Positions 29,045 to 36,000 of a stretch of 64,000 bases of DNA are shown here, in pieces. The DNA comes from an uncultured Methylococcaceae bacterium (GTDB taxonomy: Bacteria; Pseudomonadota; Gammaproteobacteria; Methylococcales; Methylomonadaceae), in contig CAJAWH010000056.1 in the NCBI GenBank assembly GCA_903945605.1, positions 1 to 64,000 of the forward strand, read 5' to 3'. Every line of letters begins with the position of its first letter. Within the stretch, counting starts at the first letter, position 1. The notes beneath the pieces are model-generated. The model was not told the DNA's origin. It did no database searches and saw nothing but the letters and a program-made list of their open reading frames with translations. A program made the position numbers and the translations under genes.

Positions 29045-30025
29045 TCAAACGCCATCAAAATAATGCCCCGCCCCCAATAATGGGGTTCTGGGATTGCTTG
29101 CCACTTTAACGGATAGGGTCTCCAGCAAGCCATAAAAACGGCCTTTGCTTTTAAATGCTTCTAAGAATCTGCCATCCTGCAAAACCGGCAATATTTTTGG
29201 GGCTATGCCGCCACCGATAAACACGCCGCCGGTTGCCAGACATTTCAAGGCCAAATTGCCCGCTTCAGCCCCGTACAGTTCAACAAATAGCCGGACGGCG
29301 GTAACACAAGCCTCGTCTTCGCCTTGTACGCCCAAGCGCGAGATAATGGCGTTACGGTCGATACCTTCTTGGTCTGCTTGGGGCACGGCGGGACACGCTG
29401 GTGCCACACCTTCGGCACAGACAAAATCGTACAACTGGCTAAAGCCATTGCCTGAGATAACGCGCTCACAGCTGACATGCCCGGGGAATAACGGGCGCAA
29501 ATAGGCCAATAGGCGGTCTTGTTGGTCGTTTTGTGCCGCTAAGTCGCAATGTCCGCCTTCAGTGGCCATAGGTTGGTGGCGGCTGCCATCCCAGTACAAA
29601 ATGGCCTCGCCCAAGCCGGTGCCGGCGGCGATCACGGCAATATTGCCGGATTGCTTTTGTGCCAGCGGGTTCAGTTCAATCAGGTCACTGTCTGGCAAAT
29701 GCAACATACCCAAGGCCATTGCTTCCAGGTCGTTCAGCAGTTTTACACGGTCGGTGCCCAGTTTGCTTTGTAGGGCGGTGGTGTCCAACAACCACGGCAA
29801 ATTGGTGGTTTGGCAACGCCCGTTGACCACCGGCCCGGCCACCCCCAAGCAAGCCGAAGACAGGCTTGTGCCTTCGGGTAAAAAAACATCCAGAATGTCG
29901 TCAAAGCGGGTAAATTCCTGGCTGGAAAAAGTCTGTTCAAGCACTTCCTGTAAGCTGTTGTCCGCTTGCCTGCTATACAGCGCCAAAACTGTTTTGGTGC
30001 CGCCAATATCACCGGCTAAGATCAT
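29045..30025 (-). CDS. glk: Glucokinase (Glk family)
   Basis: Phosphorylates glucose with ATP; 326 residues, close to the usual 321. The phosphate-binding loop LAGDIGGTKTVLALY (3-17) is present, as are LNDLEAMALGM, the hexose-binding PMATEGGHCDLA (about 152-163) and GGVFIGGGIAPK near 268. It ends 1 kb before pntA and starts just downstream of the GH15-like gene on the same strand (24-base gap), so the two are probably co-transcribed in alpha-glucan or glucose metabolism. Confidence 0.94.
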   Translation of the reverse strand: MILAGDIGGTKTVLALYSRQADNSLQEVLEQTFSSQEFTRFDDILDVFLPEGTSLSSACLGVAGPVVNGRCQTTNLPWLLDTTALQSKLGTDRVKLLNDLEAMALGMLHLPDSDLIELNPLAQKQSGNIAVIAAGTGLGEAILYWDGSRHQPMATEGGHCDLAAQNDQQDRLLAYLRPLFPGHVSCERVISGNGFSQLYDFVCAEGVAPACPAVPQADQEGIDRNAIISRLGVQGEDEACVTAVRLFVELYGAEAGNLALKCLATGGVFIGGGIAPKILPVLQDGRFLEAFKSKGRFYGLLETLSVKVASNPRTPLLGAGHYFDGV

Positions 30026-30049
30026 GCTACCCTCCTGTTGAGGCTTTAT

Positions 30050-33000
30050 TTAATGATGGTCAAGCAAGTGTACCAAAGCATCGAGCATTGCGTTAGCCAC
30101 ATGGTGCGGAGGTTGTTGGTAAAACGCTTGCCAAGCGAGCGTCTTATAATCGCCGTACTGGTCATGATGGTCGGGATGCGCTTGTAACCAGCTGATTCTT
30201 ACTGCGTGGCCAATCAATATATCGACCACCAGCATATCATCAATGTGTAACGGGTGACTGTCAATAACCGAAGCAATGGCCTTTAACGCTTCCACATGCA
30301 GTTGCCGATAAACCGGCGACTGGATTTTGTTCAGTAAGTGGTTGACATGCAGCTTAAAGCTTTGTTCACCGGGAGTGTTTTGCGAAAGGATGATGTCGCT
30401 GTCCAAACAGTTTTTGCTGTTCAGTTTATCGCCGATCACCAAGCCTTTGCAATGGTGCAGGATAGTCCATACACTGGTGAAAAAAGCCTTGTCTTCGCGC
30501 CCGACACTGCCTTTTTGCTCGCGCCATTCATACCAGCCATTGCCTTCGCCACGGTCTTTAGGGTTGCTGCTGGCCGGGAAGCGTATCTGTCCCAATGCGC
30601 GGCAATCACCCTCGAAATGCAAGGATTCCGCCACACCCAATTGGTCTTCGGTATTGCTGTAGTCTTCCAACGTTTCCCGCAATTTTACCGACAACTCGTA
30701 AGGCGGCAATGACAACAGTTCGTTAAACGCCTGCCCTAAAGAATTGCACTGGCTCTCGCGCTGCTGACGGACAATCAGCAGTTGCAAGATATGCCCGACC
30801 CTGACCGTGTACATGTCGGTGAACAATTCAGGGTGGGCTTTGACCAACATGCCCAAATACAACACCAGTTCTTGGATGATGATACGCTCGCTGGCATCGT
30901 TGTTGAACGCGTTAATGGTCTGCAATATTTCTGAAGAATCGGCAGGGCGTTTCATGGTGGCTTTGCCGCTGTAAACCCGCCCCAAGGTCAAGTTATGCTG
31001 GCGCACCAACAATTCGGTGGCGGCCTGTTCCAGATTAATGTCATATTTGCCCAGTAACCCGGCACAACGCCTGACCACATACCAGGCGTGTTGGTCGCCT
31101 GCCCGCGCATAAACTTCTTCCAGCAAATCGCGGACGGTACAGGCTTTATCGCCGCCTGCCCGCAACGGGGTGACAAAATCCAAACCATGACGGCTGGCCA
31201 ACAAACTGAGTGCTTCCATGTGTGCAAACAGATTGCCGTTGCTGTTGAGTGCTGCCAACAAGCCCACGTCGCCGCCAATCTCCCATTCTGTCAGCAAGGC
31301 TGCTGGCAGTGGTGTTGCGGGCTGCCCGCTATCAGGTAACACCGCTTGGCAAGGCCGTTCCACTTCTTCCCAAGTGGCGGTTGAAAATTGGAAGTCGTGC
31401 AGGTAATTGATTTTTTCGTAGCTGGAAGTGGCAATAAAATCGCCCAAAAAACCCAGTTCCACGGCTATCGCCTGACAGCTGCCAGACTGTAATTCTTTGA
31501 TAAAGCTAATTAATACGGCACGGTTTTGGCTATCGAGCATATTTTGCCGGATATTCATCACCACCAGCGGGTTGCCCGTCCTGTCCCAATGTTTGGCGAT
31601 ATAGGAGAACTCCAAGCGCAAGCGCTGGATCAGTAAGCGGTTGTCCATTGCCAGATAAAAGCCTTTTTGGCTGAGGCATTGCGGGGCAAACACCAATTTT
31701 TCGCCGGACAAGATATACAGCTTGGAGGTTGCCAAGGTACGCAATTGCCGCAACGGCCGACCGGTCAGGCCAATGCGGTCATTGCGCCCAACGTGGGTAT
31801 AAGCGGCGGCAAGCTCCATAGCCTCCCTGACTTGGATGGGCGAAATTTCCGCCAAGGTTTGGGCGCTGATGCCAGCCGCCAACAAATCCGCTTGCACCGC
31901 CTCATCCTGTGCCAACAAGGCCACTTGCAGCTTGTCGAATGGCTGGCTAGCCGCTTTGTGCCGCCCCAACGGGTCGATATCGGCAATAGCCAGCAAGCCA
32001 TCTTGAATCAAGCAGCCCAAAATAAACAGGCTTTGCGCCCACACCAGCGGTACATTCTCGTTAGGGATGCGGTTTTGGCTTTGCGGTCGGGCTTTTTCGG
32101 CGGCAATGTCCTCTTTTGCCACTTTATACAGCTCCGGCAACAAATACTGCCCGTTCTGCCTGACCAGTAGCCCTTGCAGTTTTTCCCGATACATGGCAGC
32201 GGCTTCGATATCGCCAGCACATAACTTATTAAGCAGCAGATAAGTGAAAAACAGCGGCCATTCACATTCAATGGCTTGGAATTGCTTCAACTCCTGCGGG
32301 TCATAATGCAGGCGGCGGCTATCCTCTAGGGTGGTTTGGTGGCCATCGAGCAAAAAGCGTTTGCAACCGTAGCGGCCCTGCAGTTTTTCGCAAATCAGTG
32401 TTTCCGTGTTGGTGCGGATAGTCGGGTTGTCAATGGCAAAAGCGGGGAAGCCCGTGATGGACAGCAGGGCCGAATCGGTTTCTTTGGACATCGACTCCCT
32501 AGGCAACAATGATTCTAGGGCGATACGGGTACGGGCAATATCGTCGCTAATGACATGGATAACCGAGGCTTGCCCGCCGTCTTTGCCAAACAAGTTGAAG
32601 CCGGACAGGGCTTCCAATGCGGCCTTTGCCATACCCATGGAACTGGCATTAAGTTCGGCTATGCCGTGGTTGATTTTATTGCCGCGCTCCCATATACCGT
32701 AATCCGGTGTCCGGTAGGCACGGCTGATGTAATGGACTAAGTTTTGGACAAAATTGACTTCATTAAGAGTAAAAATAATCCGTAAACCCGATGCCGTCAT
32801 TTGCGCCAGCATCAATAAAAACAGCGAGGTGGCATCCAGTTGCAAATGCCCCCATTCATTATCGCCCACCACCACCGCACCGGATTTGGTGTCGTATTTG
32901 GCGTGCAAGGCATCCAATGGGTTTTGCGTGTGCTTGAATTTTTCTACTTTTGGGGCTTGGCGCATCATGGCCGTCAACAAACCGCGCATTAGCTTAACGG

Positions 33001-33247
33001 TGCTTTGCTCCAGCAGGTAGGTTTTGCCAGGGTCTACACCGCTGCGGCGATAGGCCAGCGCCAAACCCCATGCCGCCAAAATACTGTAAACATTATCGCG
33101 TACCCACGCATCGGTATAGTTGCCGTGGACAGTGACGGCGGTGCTGGCGGGCAGCAAACCGCTGACCCAATCTTGACGGTTCAGGATAATATCCTGTACT
33201 TGTTGGTAATACTGGTCTAGTGGTTGTGGATCGCCATTGGTTTTCAT
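30050..33247 (-). CDS. Phosphorylase kinase alpha-subunit-like / glycoside hydrolase family 15-like protein
   Basis: A 1065-residue protein related to the regulatory alpha/beta chains of eukaryotic phosphorylase kinase, whose N-terminal half is a GH15 glucoamylase-like (alpha/alpha)6 barrel. Matching segments are YTDAWVRDNVYSILAAWGLA near residue 45, DNEWGHLQLDATSLFL near 130 and NKINHGIAELNASSMGMA near 190. Whether it hydrolyses glucans or only binds them cannot be told. The ATG at 33247 follows GGAGG; the longer frame from 33358 adds unlike sequence. It lies upstream of glk on the same strand, which suggests a role in glycogen or maltodextrin metabolism. Confidence 0.85.
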   Translation of the reverse strand: MKTNGDPQPLDQYYQQVQDIILNRQDWVSGLLPASTAVTVHGNYTDAWVRDNVYSILAAWGLALAYRRSGVDPGKTYLLEQSTVKLMRGLLTAMMRQAPKVEKFKHTQNPLDALHAKYDTKSGAVVVGDNEWGHLQLDATSLFLLMLAQMTASGLRIIFTLNEVNFVQNLVHYISRAYRTPDYGIWERGNKINHGIAELNASSMGMAKAALEALSGFNLFGKDGGQASVIHVISDDIARTRIALESLLPRESMSKETDSALLSITGFPAFAIDNPTIRTNTETLICEKLQGRYGCKRFLLDGHQTTLEDSRRLHYDPQELKQFQAIECEWPLFFTYLLLNKLCAGDIEAAAMYREKLQGLLVRQNGQYLLPELYKVAKEDIAAEKARPQSQNRIPNENVPLVWAQSLFILGCLIQDGLLAIADIDPLGRHKAASQPFDKLQVALLAQDEAVQADLLAAGISAQTLAEISPIQVREAMELAAAYTHVGRNDRIGLTGRPLRQLRTLATSKLYILSGEKLVFAPQCLSQKGFYLAMDNRLLIQRLRLEFSYIAKHWDRTGNPLVVMNIRQNMLDSQNRAVLISFIKELQSGSCQAIAVELGFLGDFIATSSYEKINYLHDFQFSTATWEEVERPCQAVLPDSGQPATPLPAALLTEWEIGGDVGLLAALNSNGNLFAHMEALSLLASRHGLDFVTPLRAGGDKACTVRDLLEEVYARAGDQHAWYVVRRCAGLLGKYDINLEQAATELLVRQHNLTLGRVYSGKATMKRPADSSEILQTINAFNNDASERIIIQELVLYLGMLVKAHPELFTDMYTVRVGHILQLLIVRQQRESQCNSLGQAFNELLSLPPYELSVKLRETLEDYSNTEDQLGVAESLHFEGDCRALGQIRFPASSNPKDRGEGNGWYEWREQKGSVGREDKAFFTSVWTILHHCKGLVIGDKLNSKNCLDSDIILSQNTPGEQSFKLHVNHLLNKIQSPVYRQLHVEALKAIASVIDSHPLHIDDMLVVDILIGHAVRISWLQAHPDHHDQYGDYKTLAWQAFYQQPPHHVANAMLDALVHLLDHH

Positions 33248-33356
33248 GGTAGGAGCCTCCTTCCGAAGTAAAGAGTGGAAACGAAATGGGCATTGGCAGG
33301 GATGGTATGGCACACTGGCAATAAGCCCAATGTGGCTAAAGCTGTTTTCTGCAATC

Positions 33357-33394
33357 AAAAAAAAAGCGCTTTATCCTTATCCTGGATAAAGCGC
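33357..33394 (-). terminator. Intrinsic terminator facing the GH15-like gene
   Basis: Perfect 11-bp stem GCGCTTTATCC/GGATAAAGCGC with a 7-base loop, followed on the minus strand by nine T. It ends a minus-strand transcript that starts somewhere in 33395-33900, where no convincing gene is seen, so the transcript may be a small RNA. Confidence 0.8.
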
Positions 33395-33793
33395 AACCAC
33401 CTTACAAACGGCAACAAACACTACAAGGTTTAACACGACACAGAAAACTAACATCTTGCAAAGATTATTGCAGTTAGTGTGCCATTTTATTATTTTCCCG
33501 TAAAAAAATAGTAACCCACTAAAAAACAAACAAATGTATGGATTAAGGAAGATGTCGTGCATTTGAGTGAATCAATAGCACCAAGTGGCGATGCACGAAA
33601 AAAGCCCTTATTGGATGGCAATCGCACAAAATTGGTGCATTGTGGGCAGTTGCAGTCAAAACACCCTATCACCTGCTGCTATCTATGCAGACTTAAGCGC
33701 CACAATCGGTTATATTGTTAAGGACTTTGCCGGACTTGCCAAAACCGCCAATACTGTCATGTGGTCAGTGCGGCGGCAGCCCATACCCGTACT

Positions 33794-33856
33794 GTTGCGG
33801 GAAAGGCTTTAGCCTTGATGGTCTGGGCCAAAGCCTTTCCCGCAACAATAAAATAT
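33794..33856. repeat. Perfect 17-bp inverted repeat before the repeat-motif protein gene
   Basis: GTTGCGGGAAAGGCTTT (33794-33810) and AAAGCCTTTCCCGCAAC (33840-33856) pair exactly. After one mismatch a further GCC/GGC extends the stem. It ends 44 bases before the ATG at 33901 and would sit in that gene's leader or just upstream of it. No T-run follows. Confidence 0.75.
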
Positions 33857-33900: not shown

Positions 33901-35739
33901 ATGGAACTTTTTTTACAGGCTTGGCAGCCGCTCGTAGCTGATTGGCTTGCTTTAACACTGGCAAACCCGGCGTATGCAGCCACTATTGCCGGTATTGTCT
34001 GGTTATTGACCGCCATGCTGGGCGCTATTAGGGCCAGAAGCCTAAAAAAGCTTATTGTCCAACGACAACAAGCCTTGGACGATGCCAGCGGGCAATTGCA
34101 AATTGCCCAGCAAAACGTGGCAACCACTCAAGAGCAGTTGTTACAAGCCCAAGCCGATGCTGATCAGGCACGGCAATCGGCACAACTGCTGCAGACACTG
34201 CTGCTCCAGCGCAATAACCAAGTGGCCGGTGTCATACAATCGTTGTCAATCAGCTTCGATATGGGTGAACGCCCCGTACCAGTGACAGATGACGTGCAAG
34301 CGGAAGCCCTGTGGGAACAACACGGACGGGCAGTCAATCAGTTGGTTGCCAGCTTGCGGGCGGAAAGCCAAGCCAAAACTGCGTGGCAAAACGATTGCCA
34401 AAGCGAAGCGGCAAAACGGGCCGCCTTGGAAGCACAGGTCATGCCCCTGCAAGCCATGCTGGGCGAGCATTCCGGACAAATAGAAGCACTGGTGGCCAAG
34501 CAAAATGACTACTTGGGCCATATCGCTCTGTTACAGCAAAAATTGACTGAACAAAATGAGTTATATCAACAGTTAGAACAACAGACCGAAGCTTCGTTGG
34601 AGCATTTTGCCCAATCTCATGCAGCGGATGCACAGCGCTTGCAAGAACTGGAGCAACAGCTGGCGGAGTTGGAAAACTACAAAAGCCAAAACAAGCAGTT
34701 ACAAGAAGCTTTAACCGCCCAAGAGAGCGAAATTGCCCGTTGGCAAGATCAGGCCAATAATGCCCTACCGGTAACGCGCCATGATGCAGTGGCAAAATTT
34801 GCCACGCATAATAACGGAGCGGTGTCCTCTCAAGCACTGCTAGCTTCTCCGGTCTTGCCTGATGACAGTACCAAAACTGACCCTGCAGAAGAGCCAGTCG
34901 TGTCAACTATGCCCAACATAGTATTAGAGCCGCCTGTAGAAGAACCTGCTGGACAAGCCGAAGCACACAACCCCTTGGGCTTTATGAAAAACCTGTTCGG
35001 CAAAAACAAGCCTGTACCGGTTGAAGAAATCTCAGAGGTTGAAGAATCACTTGCCGAGGCAGAACCTGAGCTTGTTGTGGCGGATGTGGAAGCGGTGGTT
35101 ATAGCGGAACCGGAAGAACAGCAGCACGCCGGACAGGCCGAAGAACATAACCCGTTAGGCTTTATGAAAAACTTGTTTGGCAAAAACAAGCCCGCAGCGG
35201 TTGAAGAAATCAGAGAAGTTGAAGAATCACTTGCCGAGACAGAACCGGCACAAGTGCCAGAGCCTGTTGCAACGAATGAGGAATTAGCGGTTGCACTGGA
35301 ACCGGAAGAACAGCAGCACGCCGGACAGGCCGAAGAACATAACCCGTTGGGGTTCATGAAAAACTTGTTTGGCAAAAACAAGCCCGCAGCGGTTGAGCCG
35401 ATTGAAGCAGTGGCAGAGACAGAACCTGAACCAGACACACTTACCCTGCAAAACGCTGATGTGGCAGGACATCCCGTACCAAGTGATCCGCTGGGCTTTA
35501 TGAAAAACATATTTAAAAACAAGCAGCCCGTTGAAATAGAGCCGCCACTGCCGATAGTTGAAGAAAAATACGATACGGAAATTGCAGAACCCGTCGCCGA
35601 CAATCCAGCGCTCGGCTTCATGAAAAAATTGTTCGCTAAAGCAGAACCGGCACCGATTGTGCTGGAGCCAGAACCAGAACCGCCGCTAGCGCCTGAAGAA
35701 ACGCCCGCCAAACCCAGCAATCCCTTCAAATTTTGGTAG
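33901..35739 (+). CDS. Unrecognised membrane-anchored coiled-coil protein with five NPLGFMKNLFGKNKP-type repeats
   Basis: I do not recognise this 612-residue protein. One membrane segment lies at about 21-42 (ANPAYAATIAGIVWLLTAML), followed by a basic RARSLKK. A Gln/Glu/Ala-rich coiled coil covers about 50-290. The rest is acidic, Pro/Glu-rich and probably disordered. It carries five copies of a short basic-hydrophobic motif, starting at residues 357, 417, 481, 529 and 568, and ends in NPFKFW. The motif looks like an amphipathic helix or docking peptide, so a multivalent scaffold is an inference. It is monocistronic; the ATG follows GAGGAAC. Neighbours do not fix a role. Confidence 0.85.
   Translation: MELFLQAWQPLVADWLALTLANPAYAATIAGIVWLLTAMLGAIRARSLKKLIVQRQQALDDASGQLQIAQQNVATTQEQLLQAQADADQARQSAQLLQTLLLQRNNQVAGVIQSLSISFDMGERPVPVTDDVQAEALWEQHGRAVNQLVASLRAESQAKTAWQNDCQSEAAKRAALEAQVMPLQAMLGEHSGQIEALVAKQNDYLGHIALLQQKLTEQNELYQQLEQQTEASLEHFAQSHAADAQRLQELEQQLAELENYKSQNKQLQEALTAQESEIARWQDQANNALPVTRHDAVAKFATHNNGAVSSQALLASPVLPDDSTKTDPAEEPVVSTMPNIVLEPPVEEPAGQAEAHNPLGFMKNLFGKNKPVPVEEISEVEESLAEAEPELVVADVEAVVIAEPEEQQHAGQAEEHNPLGFMKNLFGKNKPAAVEEIREVEESLAETEPAQVPEPVATNEELAVALEPEEQQHAGQAEEHNPLGFMKNLFGKNKPAAVEPIEAVAETEPEPDTLTLQNADVAGHPVPSDPLGFMKNIFKNKQPVEIEPPLPIVEEKYDTEIAEPVADNPALGFMKKLFAKAEPAPIVLEPEPEPPLAPEETPAKPSNPFKFW
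34969..35646 (+). repeat. Five in-gene repeats encoding NPLGFMKNLFGKNKP and variants
   Basis: Repeat units begin at 34969, 35149, 35341, 35485 and 35602. Units 1-3 are identical in protein over 15 residues; unit 4 reads DPLGFMKNIFKNKQP and unit 5 NPALGFMKKLFAKAEP. At DNA level about 100 bases at 35106-35205 recur at 35298-35397 with very few changes, an offset of 192 bases (64 codons), so this part was recently duplicated in frame. Linkers between units are Glu/Pro/Val-rich. Confidence 0.92.
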
Positions 35740-36000
35740 CCCAACAATCGGTCGTGATTTTTGCTAATGCCACGCAAAGGGCAAAACGTTGCAATGGCTT
35801 GTCGAGGCCCTGCACGTTCCCTGGGCGAAGTTGAGGGGCATTGCATTTGGGCAAGGCGGCTAGGCAAACAATAGCATGTTAGCTGGGCACGGCTTCAACT
35901 ACGCTCAGCCAACGTGACACGACACGCTTAGCCAACGCGCTGTGTTGCCCGCCCCTACGCCCACTGCCGCGTTATGCCCAGTTATCGTAAGCAACATCAG
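35740..36000. other. Convergent spacer with dispersed repeats
   Basis: Spacer between two converging genes. It holds a copy of the dispersed repeat as GGCTTCAACTACGCTCAGCC plus AACGTG (35888-35914), a second CGCTTAGCCAACGCG unit just after it, and an inverted relative CGTTCCCTGGGCGAAG (35814-35829). TAAGCAACATCAGTTA at the end resembles the TAACATCAGTTA found beside the copy near 28800. No gene. Confidence 0.55.

Follow-up and report, generated by a model that had tools for sequence, protein, structure and literature searches.

The C-terminal helix of MinD is of a type known to bind membrane. Single-pass division proteins such as ZipA and EzrA place an N-terminal membrane segment ahead of a Pro/Glu-rich linker or a coiled coil in the cytoplasm, and CsoS2 carries repeated short motifs along a disordered chain. 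Among eukaryotic proteins, GMAP-210-type golgins bridge two membranes by means of a long coiled coil that is anchored to membrane at one end and has an amphipathic helix for lipid binding at its opposite end (PMC4961469). When a nine-residue bacterial MreB helix was fused to GFP, one copy was nearly insufficient for membrane localization and two in tandem were sufficient, and the E. coli MreB helix was slightly at the membrane as a single copy and completely so as a tandem pair (PMC3163269).

We compared with these systems a gene found in the window, a 64,000-nucleotide stretch of DNA from an uncultured Methylococcaceae bacterium. The gene (33901..35739, + strand, ATG start) encodes a protein of 612 residues without a named family, which the preliminary description had read as an N-terminal membrane segment followed by a long coiled coil and an acidic Pro/Glu-rich tail. 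Hydropathy, charge and an AlphaFold2 model with helices at residues 2-21, 23-120 and 132-285 followed by a disordered tail all agree with that layout. The preliminary description did not include the coil break, the C-terminal motif copy found family-wide or how broadly the family occurs, all described below. The first helix (residues 2-21; 33904..33963, +) is probably on the periplasmic side, and net negative charge precedes the membrane segment throughout the family. The single transmembrane segment (about residues 27-45; 33979..34035, +) is marked by a hydropathy peak, is followed by RARSLKK and begins about 25 residues in for all 85 non-redundant homologues. Mean net charge is −1.6 before this segment and +3.3 after it, with the value after exceeding the value before in 85/85 homologues, a positive-inside signal that places the coil and tail in the cytoplasm. 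The two-helix coiled coil comes next (to residue 120, then 132-285; 34036..34755, +). For residues 132-285, an angle of 102.9 degrees, or 3.5 residues per turn, gave the highest moment of those tested, which is coiled-coil-like. The remaining acidic Pro/Glu-rich tail (residues 286-612; 34756..35736, +) is predicted to be disordered, with nearly all pLDDT values below 50, and linkers across the family carry a net charge of −0.086 per residue.

The sequence NP-LGFMKNLFGKNK-P, exact or in variant form, recurs five times along this tail, at the positions first reported and evident both in the protein and as DNA repeats. The first three read NPLGFMKNLFGKNKP and occupy residues 357-371 (34969..35013, +), 417-431 (35149..35193, +) and 481-495 (35341..35385, +); they are followed by the variants DPLGFMKNIFKNKQP at residues 529-543 (35485..35529, +) and NPALGFMKKLFAKAEP at residues 568-583 (35602..35649, +). 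The tail DNA contains a 67-nt unit five times at 61-100% identity and a 161-nt unit three times. The sequence NPFKFW, which had also been noted, is indeed present at the C-terminus (35719..35736, +), but alignment with the nearest relative (L110, a protein 71-72% identical from an uncultured Methylococcaceae MAG) shows DPLKGFYRLFSMKNK at this place, indicating that the window protein has lost the C-terminal copy typical of the family and that NPFKFW is its truncated remnant rather than a sixth variant. Internal copies number five in the window protein and three in this relative, and the comparison indicates that the former gained copies by tandem duplication. When the 2.88-Mb genome was scanned at DNA level for sequences able to encode F-M-K-x-[LIMVF]-F, five matches were obtained, each at a copy in this gene, so the scan revealed no second motif-bearing protein that might act as a partner. 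A 345-residue open frame lies antisense to the repeat region (34830-35867, −) and probably results simply from the biased tail composition.

The closest likeness of the motif is to the membrane-targeting sequence at the C-terminus of MinD, and also to the amphipathic helices of FtsA and MreB, all of them likewise 9-12 residues long, basic and amphipathic with an L-x-x-L-F-G pattern. The MinD encoded in the same genome ends in KKGLLGKLFGGR, similar to the motif in length, charge and this pattern, and the likeness extends to location, with a copy within the last 28 residues in 79/85 homologues. The window protein itself lacks one, and of the six homologues without a copy most have a near-variant at the end. 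Unlike MinD, FtsA and MreB, the family combines several copies per tail with a transmembrane anchor and has no ATPase or actin domain; in the window protein we found no Walker-type ATPase domain of the MinD kind, only coiled coil and disordered tail. Golgins of the GMAP-210 type are comparable in having a long coil between a membrane anchor and an amphipathic helix, but are not homologous, and the family carries several helix copies. Golgin ALPS helices are also not known to carry basic residues like those of the family motif. The likeness to multivalent short-motif scaffolds such as CsoS2, like that to encapsulation peptides, is one of analogy only. The family is membrane-anchored, has a coiled coil and bears a different motif; the CsoS2 repeats of Pfam and NCBIfam did not match, and no carboxysome genes were seen nearby, where glucokinase-like, glucoamylase-like and unrelated genes lie. 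ZipA- and EzrA-like division proteins share the membrane segment, the linker or coil and the cytoplasmic location, but the family has neither an FtsZ-binding domain nor a Pfam match.

Searches with the window protein agreed with the initial impression that it belongs to no known family: the best Pfam score was 11.2 bits against a cut-off of 22, and a PDB profile search gave no match. The highest NCBIfam score (SMC, 18.3 bits against a cut-off of 567) fell on the coil, with no ATPase head, and we rejected an SMC/Rad50-type assignment. Scanning 36 family members singly against known families returned scattered weak matches only, among them a Pfam FtsA_C match in one member (L079) that was below cut-off, lay in a linker away from the motif copies and was set aside as chance. 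No paper on this protein was found in a literature search. A transmembrane anchor together with several MinD-like helices in one tail is a layout without a match in the databases searched. Given the function proposed here, the protein is a variant on known membrane-binding helix proteins and not a new kind of system.

The window protein is nevertheless no orphan, as profile searches of Methylococcales and other genomes of the class uncovered a family of the same layout: an N-terminal transmembrane segment, a coil with an FDxGERP hinge, an acidic tail and the basic amphipathic motif, all present in the window protein. A single-sequence search gave matches, including a few weak ones, in 17 of 101 related genomes. 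A first profile built on the N-terminal part (about 280 residues) matched 150/237 genomes of the protein's own GTDB family at E ≤ 0.001. At E ≤ 1e-8 this profile matched 140/311 genomes of the order, all in the same family, and a broader profile at 1e-5 matched 153/311, all but three in that family. Named members include Methylobacter psychrophilus, M. tundripaludum SV96, Crenothrix and Candidatus Methylobacter oryzae, and most genomes with the gene carry one copy. The first profile missed or barely registered some genomes that encode divergent proteins with this layout, for instance G006, G014 and G021. Several genera of the protein's own family gave no detection, and neither did 36/38 genomes of a sister family (f4). 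The two f4 genomes with a detected protein belong to one genus; the sister-family proteins L175 and L177 (genomes G070 and G292) have the same layout with repeats of the type KKGMFGLFGKK, the f4 version ending in GKEQLKGLFRFGGKK, and may be either remote homologues or a convergent form. A weaker match in another family (G064, f5) has the coil and no clear motif repeats. Among 369 class genomes besides that of the window there were only three borderline matches, near 1e-5, from which the family appears essentially confined to Methylococcales and patchy within the order.

The motif is the hallmark of this family. Its consensus is G-K-[LFI]-K-[GNS]-[LF]-[FLY]-G-K, and the C-terminal copies served to train a score matrix, which was then run on the tails upstream. 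Over the 85 non-redundant homologues it found 134 internal copies, or 1.58 per tail compared with 0.005 per shuffled tail; the copies are thus far beyond chance, and the same matrix matched only five times in all coil regions together. Pooled over 36 disjoint pairs, dN/dS was 0.148 for motif cores, 0.201 for the coil, 0.230 for the N-terminus with the transmembrane segment and 0.349 for linkers, so that of these four the motif is under the strongest purifying selection, and most gaps fall in the linkers. This is the reverse of the pattern, conserved linkers between unconserved motifs, that the preliminary description had named as counting against it. We conclude that this is a real protein family, previously unnamed, with a well-conserved repeated motif.

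By alignment, the best-conserved part of the protein is the break in the coil (residues 105-140; 34213..34320, +), where the conservation profile follows the form N-x(7)-Q ... SFDMGERP ... A-x3-W-x-Q. In the window protein the two coil helices are separated by SFDMGERPVP with the flanking N, Q, A, W and Q, the family form being FDxGERPxP, and of 14 columns that are invariant in alignment A4, 10 lie here, although the most divergent members show the hinge only weakly. This concentration of invariant positions suggests a partner-binding or hinge site, and the break may be the real functional site of the protein.

The preliminary description had offered the motif as either a membrane-binding helix or a docking peptide. 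We favour the former on the strength of the MinD likeness, the amphipathic moment and the published behaviour of short bacterial amphipathic helices, above all the MreB tandem result, and give about an even chance to the reading of the protein, drawn from its sequence, as a multivalent tether on the cytoplasmic face of the membrane. It would be a single-pass inner-membrane protein with its coiled coil, perhaps 30-35 nm if fully extended at 0.15 nm per residue, and its disordered tail in the cytoplasm. Along the tail, a series of short basic helices, amphipathic like those that target MinD, FtsA and MreB to membrane, would individually bind acidic phospholipid weakly, and together, multiplied by oligomerization of the coil, these helices would grip membrane by avidity. 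The tether could then hold its anchoring membrane to another stretch of membrane, or hold the coil along its own, with the FDxGERPxP hinge as the probable binding place of a dedicated partner. The MreB comparison of single and tandem helices would supply a reason for the repetition of the motif, and a copy number that is fluid among homologues (0-6), together with the tandem duplication in the window lineage, is what would be expected if valency matters. The recurrence of the motif throughout the family, the strong purifying selection on it, its positive charge and the positive-inside signal also count in favour of this reading. Over 213 motif cores, the mean hydrophobic moment was 0.48 compared with 0.31 when those residues were shuffled and was largest at 100 degrees; just 17% of cores lie above the shuffles' 95th percentile, and this moderate moment weighs against a tether, as do the sequence specificity of the motif and the weakness of its AlphaFold2 helices. 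In the modelled window tail, apart from a handful of residues elsewhere, pLDDT exceeds 50 only in the motif cores, and the model of the homologue L079 has two tail helices, neither of which coincides with a motif copy. These predicted helix signals are weak and do not decide between the readings.

The specificity of the motif is what keeps docking the main rival, and a serious one. Position 9 is G in 147/213 copies, position 6 is a small residue, and position 5 holds 2 Arg against 184 Lys where about 20 Arg would be expected from tail composition, which together exceed what lipid binding needs. On a docking reading, which we think possible but doubtful, each copy would bind a groove on one cytosolic protein, so that many molecules of that protein are concentrated at the membrane, in the manner of CsoS2 or other scaffolds with multivalent short linear motifs. 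The stronger conservation of the motif relative to other regions would suit this, as would the median spacing of 53 residues between copies in acidic disordered linkers. However, no neighbour was common to different genera in the 20 neighbourhoods examined, so that no partner gene co-travels with the family, and in 42 genomes matches to the strict motif pattern were never clustered outside the family, ten of the matching regions in genomes lacking it proving on inspection to be unrelated proteins or short ORFs. The motif also varies widely between genera while its hydrophobic pattern is kept (KLKGFYSKF, KLKSIISKL, ALKGLYQKF), which suits lipid better than a single groove. Motif cores carry a mean charge of +3.2, as might be expected if their ligand were not lipid but another polyanion (RNA, DNA or polyphosphate), which they would attach to the membrane; we hold this to be highly improbable, because the hydrophobic triad L..LF, conserved on one face with high information content, is unexpected of a purely electrostatic binder.

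If the helices bind membrane, as the tether reading proposes, the family would give bacteria an example of a multivalent tether and offer a concrete candidate for the way in which methanotrophs organize membranes inside the cell. The intracytoplasmic membranes (ICMs) of type I methanotrophs form stacks of vesicular discs (PMC6680624), whose biogenesis is described as unknown (PMC9445010), and a family essentially confined to Methylococcales might be a dedicated organizer of these stacks, anchored in one disc, gripping the cytosolic face of the next and setting stacking or curvature. We judge such a dedicated role unlikely: type I ICM stacks are general, yet the protein is undetected in several genera and most sister-family genomes as given above, and the 20 neighbourhoods, judged from cluster representatives, showed no link to pmo genes. 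The more specific picture of a lineage-specific, golgin-like bridging tether that organizes type I methanotroph ICM stacks through tandem membrane-gripping helices is, in our estimate, a shade less likely again.

Several features of the surroundings were also recorded. In one subclade (L050, L051, L055, L064 and L065) the gene adjoins an apparent cobO (corrinoid adenosyltransferase) and hemL. In the window, two genes diverge from it (29045-33358, −), encoding proteins of 326 and 1102 residues that, from reading their sequences rather than from a family search, we take to be glucokinase-like and glucoamylase/phosphorylase-kinase-like, respectively; the same arrangement occurs in G017 (L049). 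A palindromic element (33755-33855) with 25-nt arms that are 92% complementary lies about 50 nt upstream of the gene; it is not at the same place in the nearest relative and is perhaps a small mobile repeat. A further block of about 120 bp (33335-33454), mostly upstream of the glucoamylase-like gene, had no Rfam match and is single-copy in the genome; it contains the inverted repeat GCGCTTTATCC/GGATAAAGCGC and is 100% identical to its counterpart in the nearest relative, whereas the neighbouring coding DNA is 90-97% identical.
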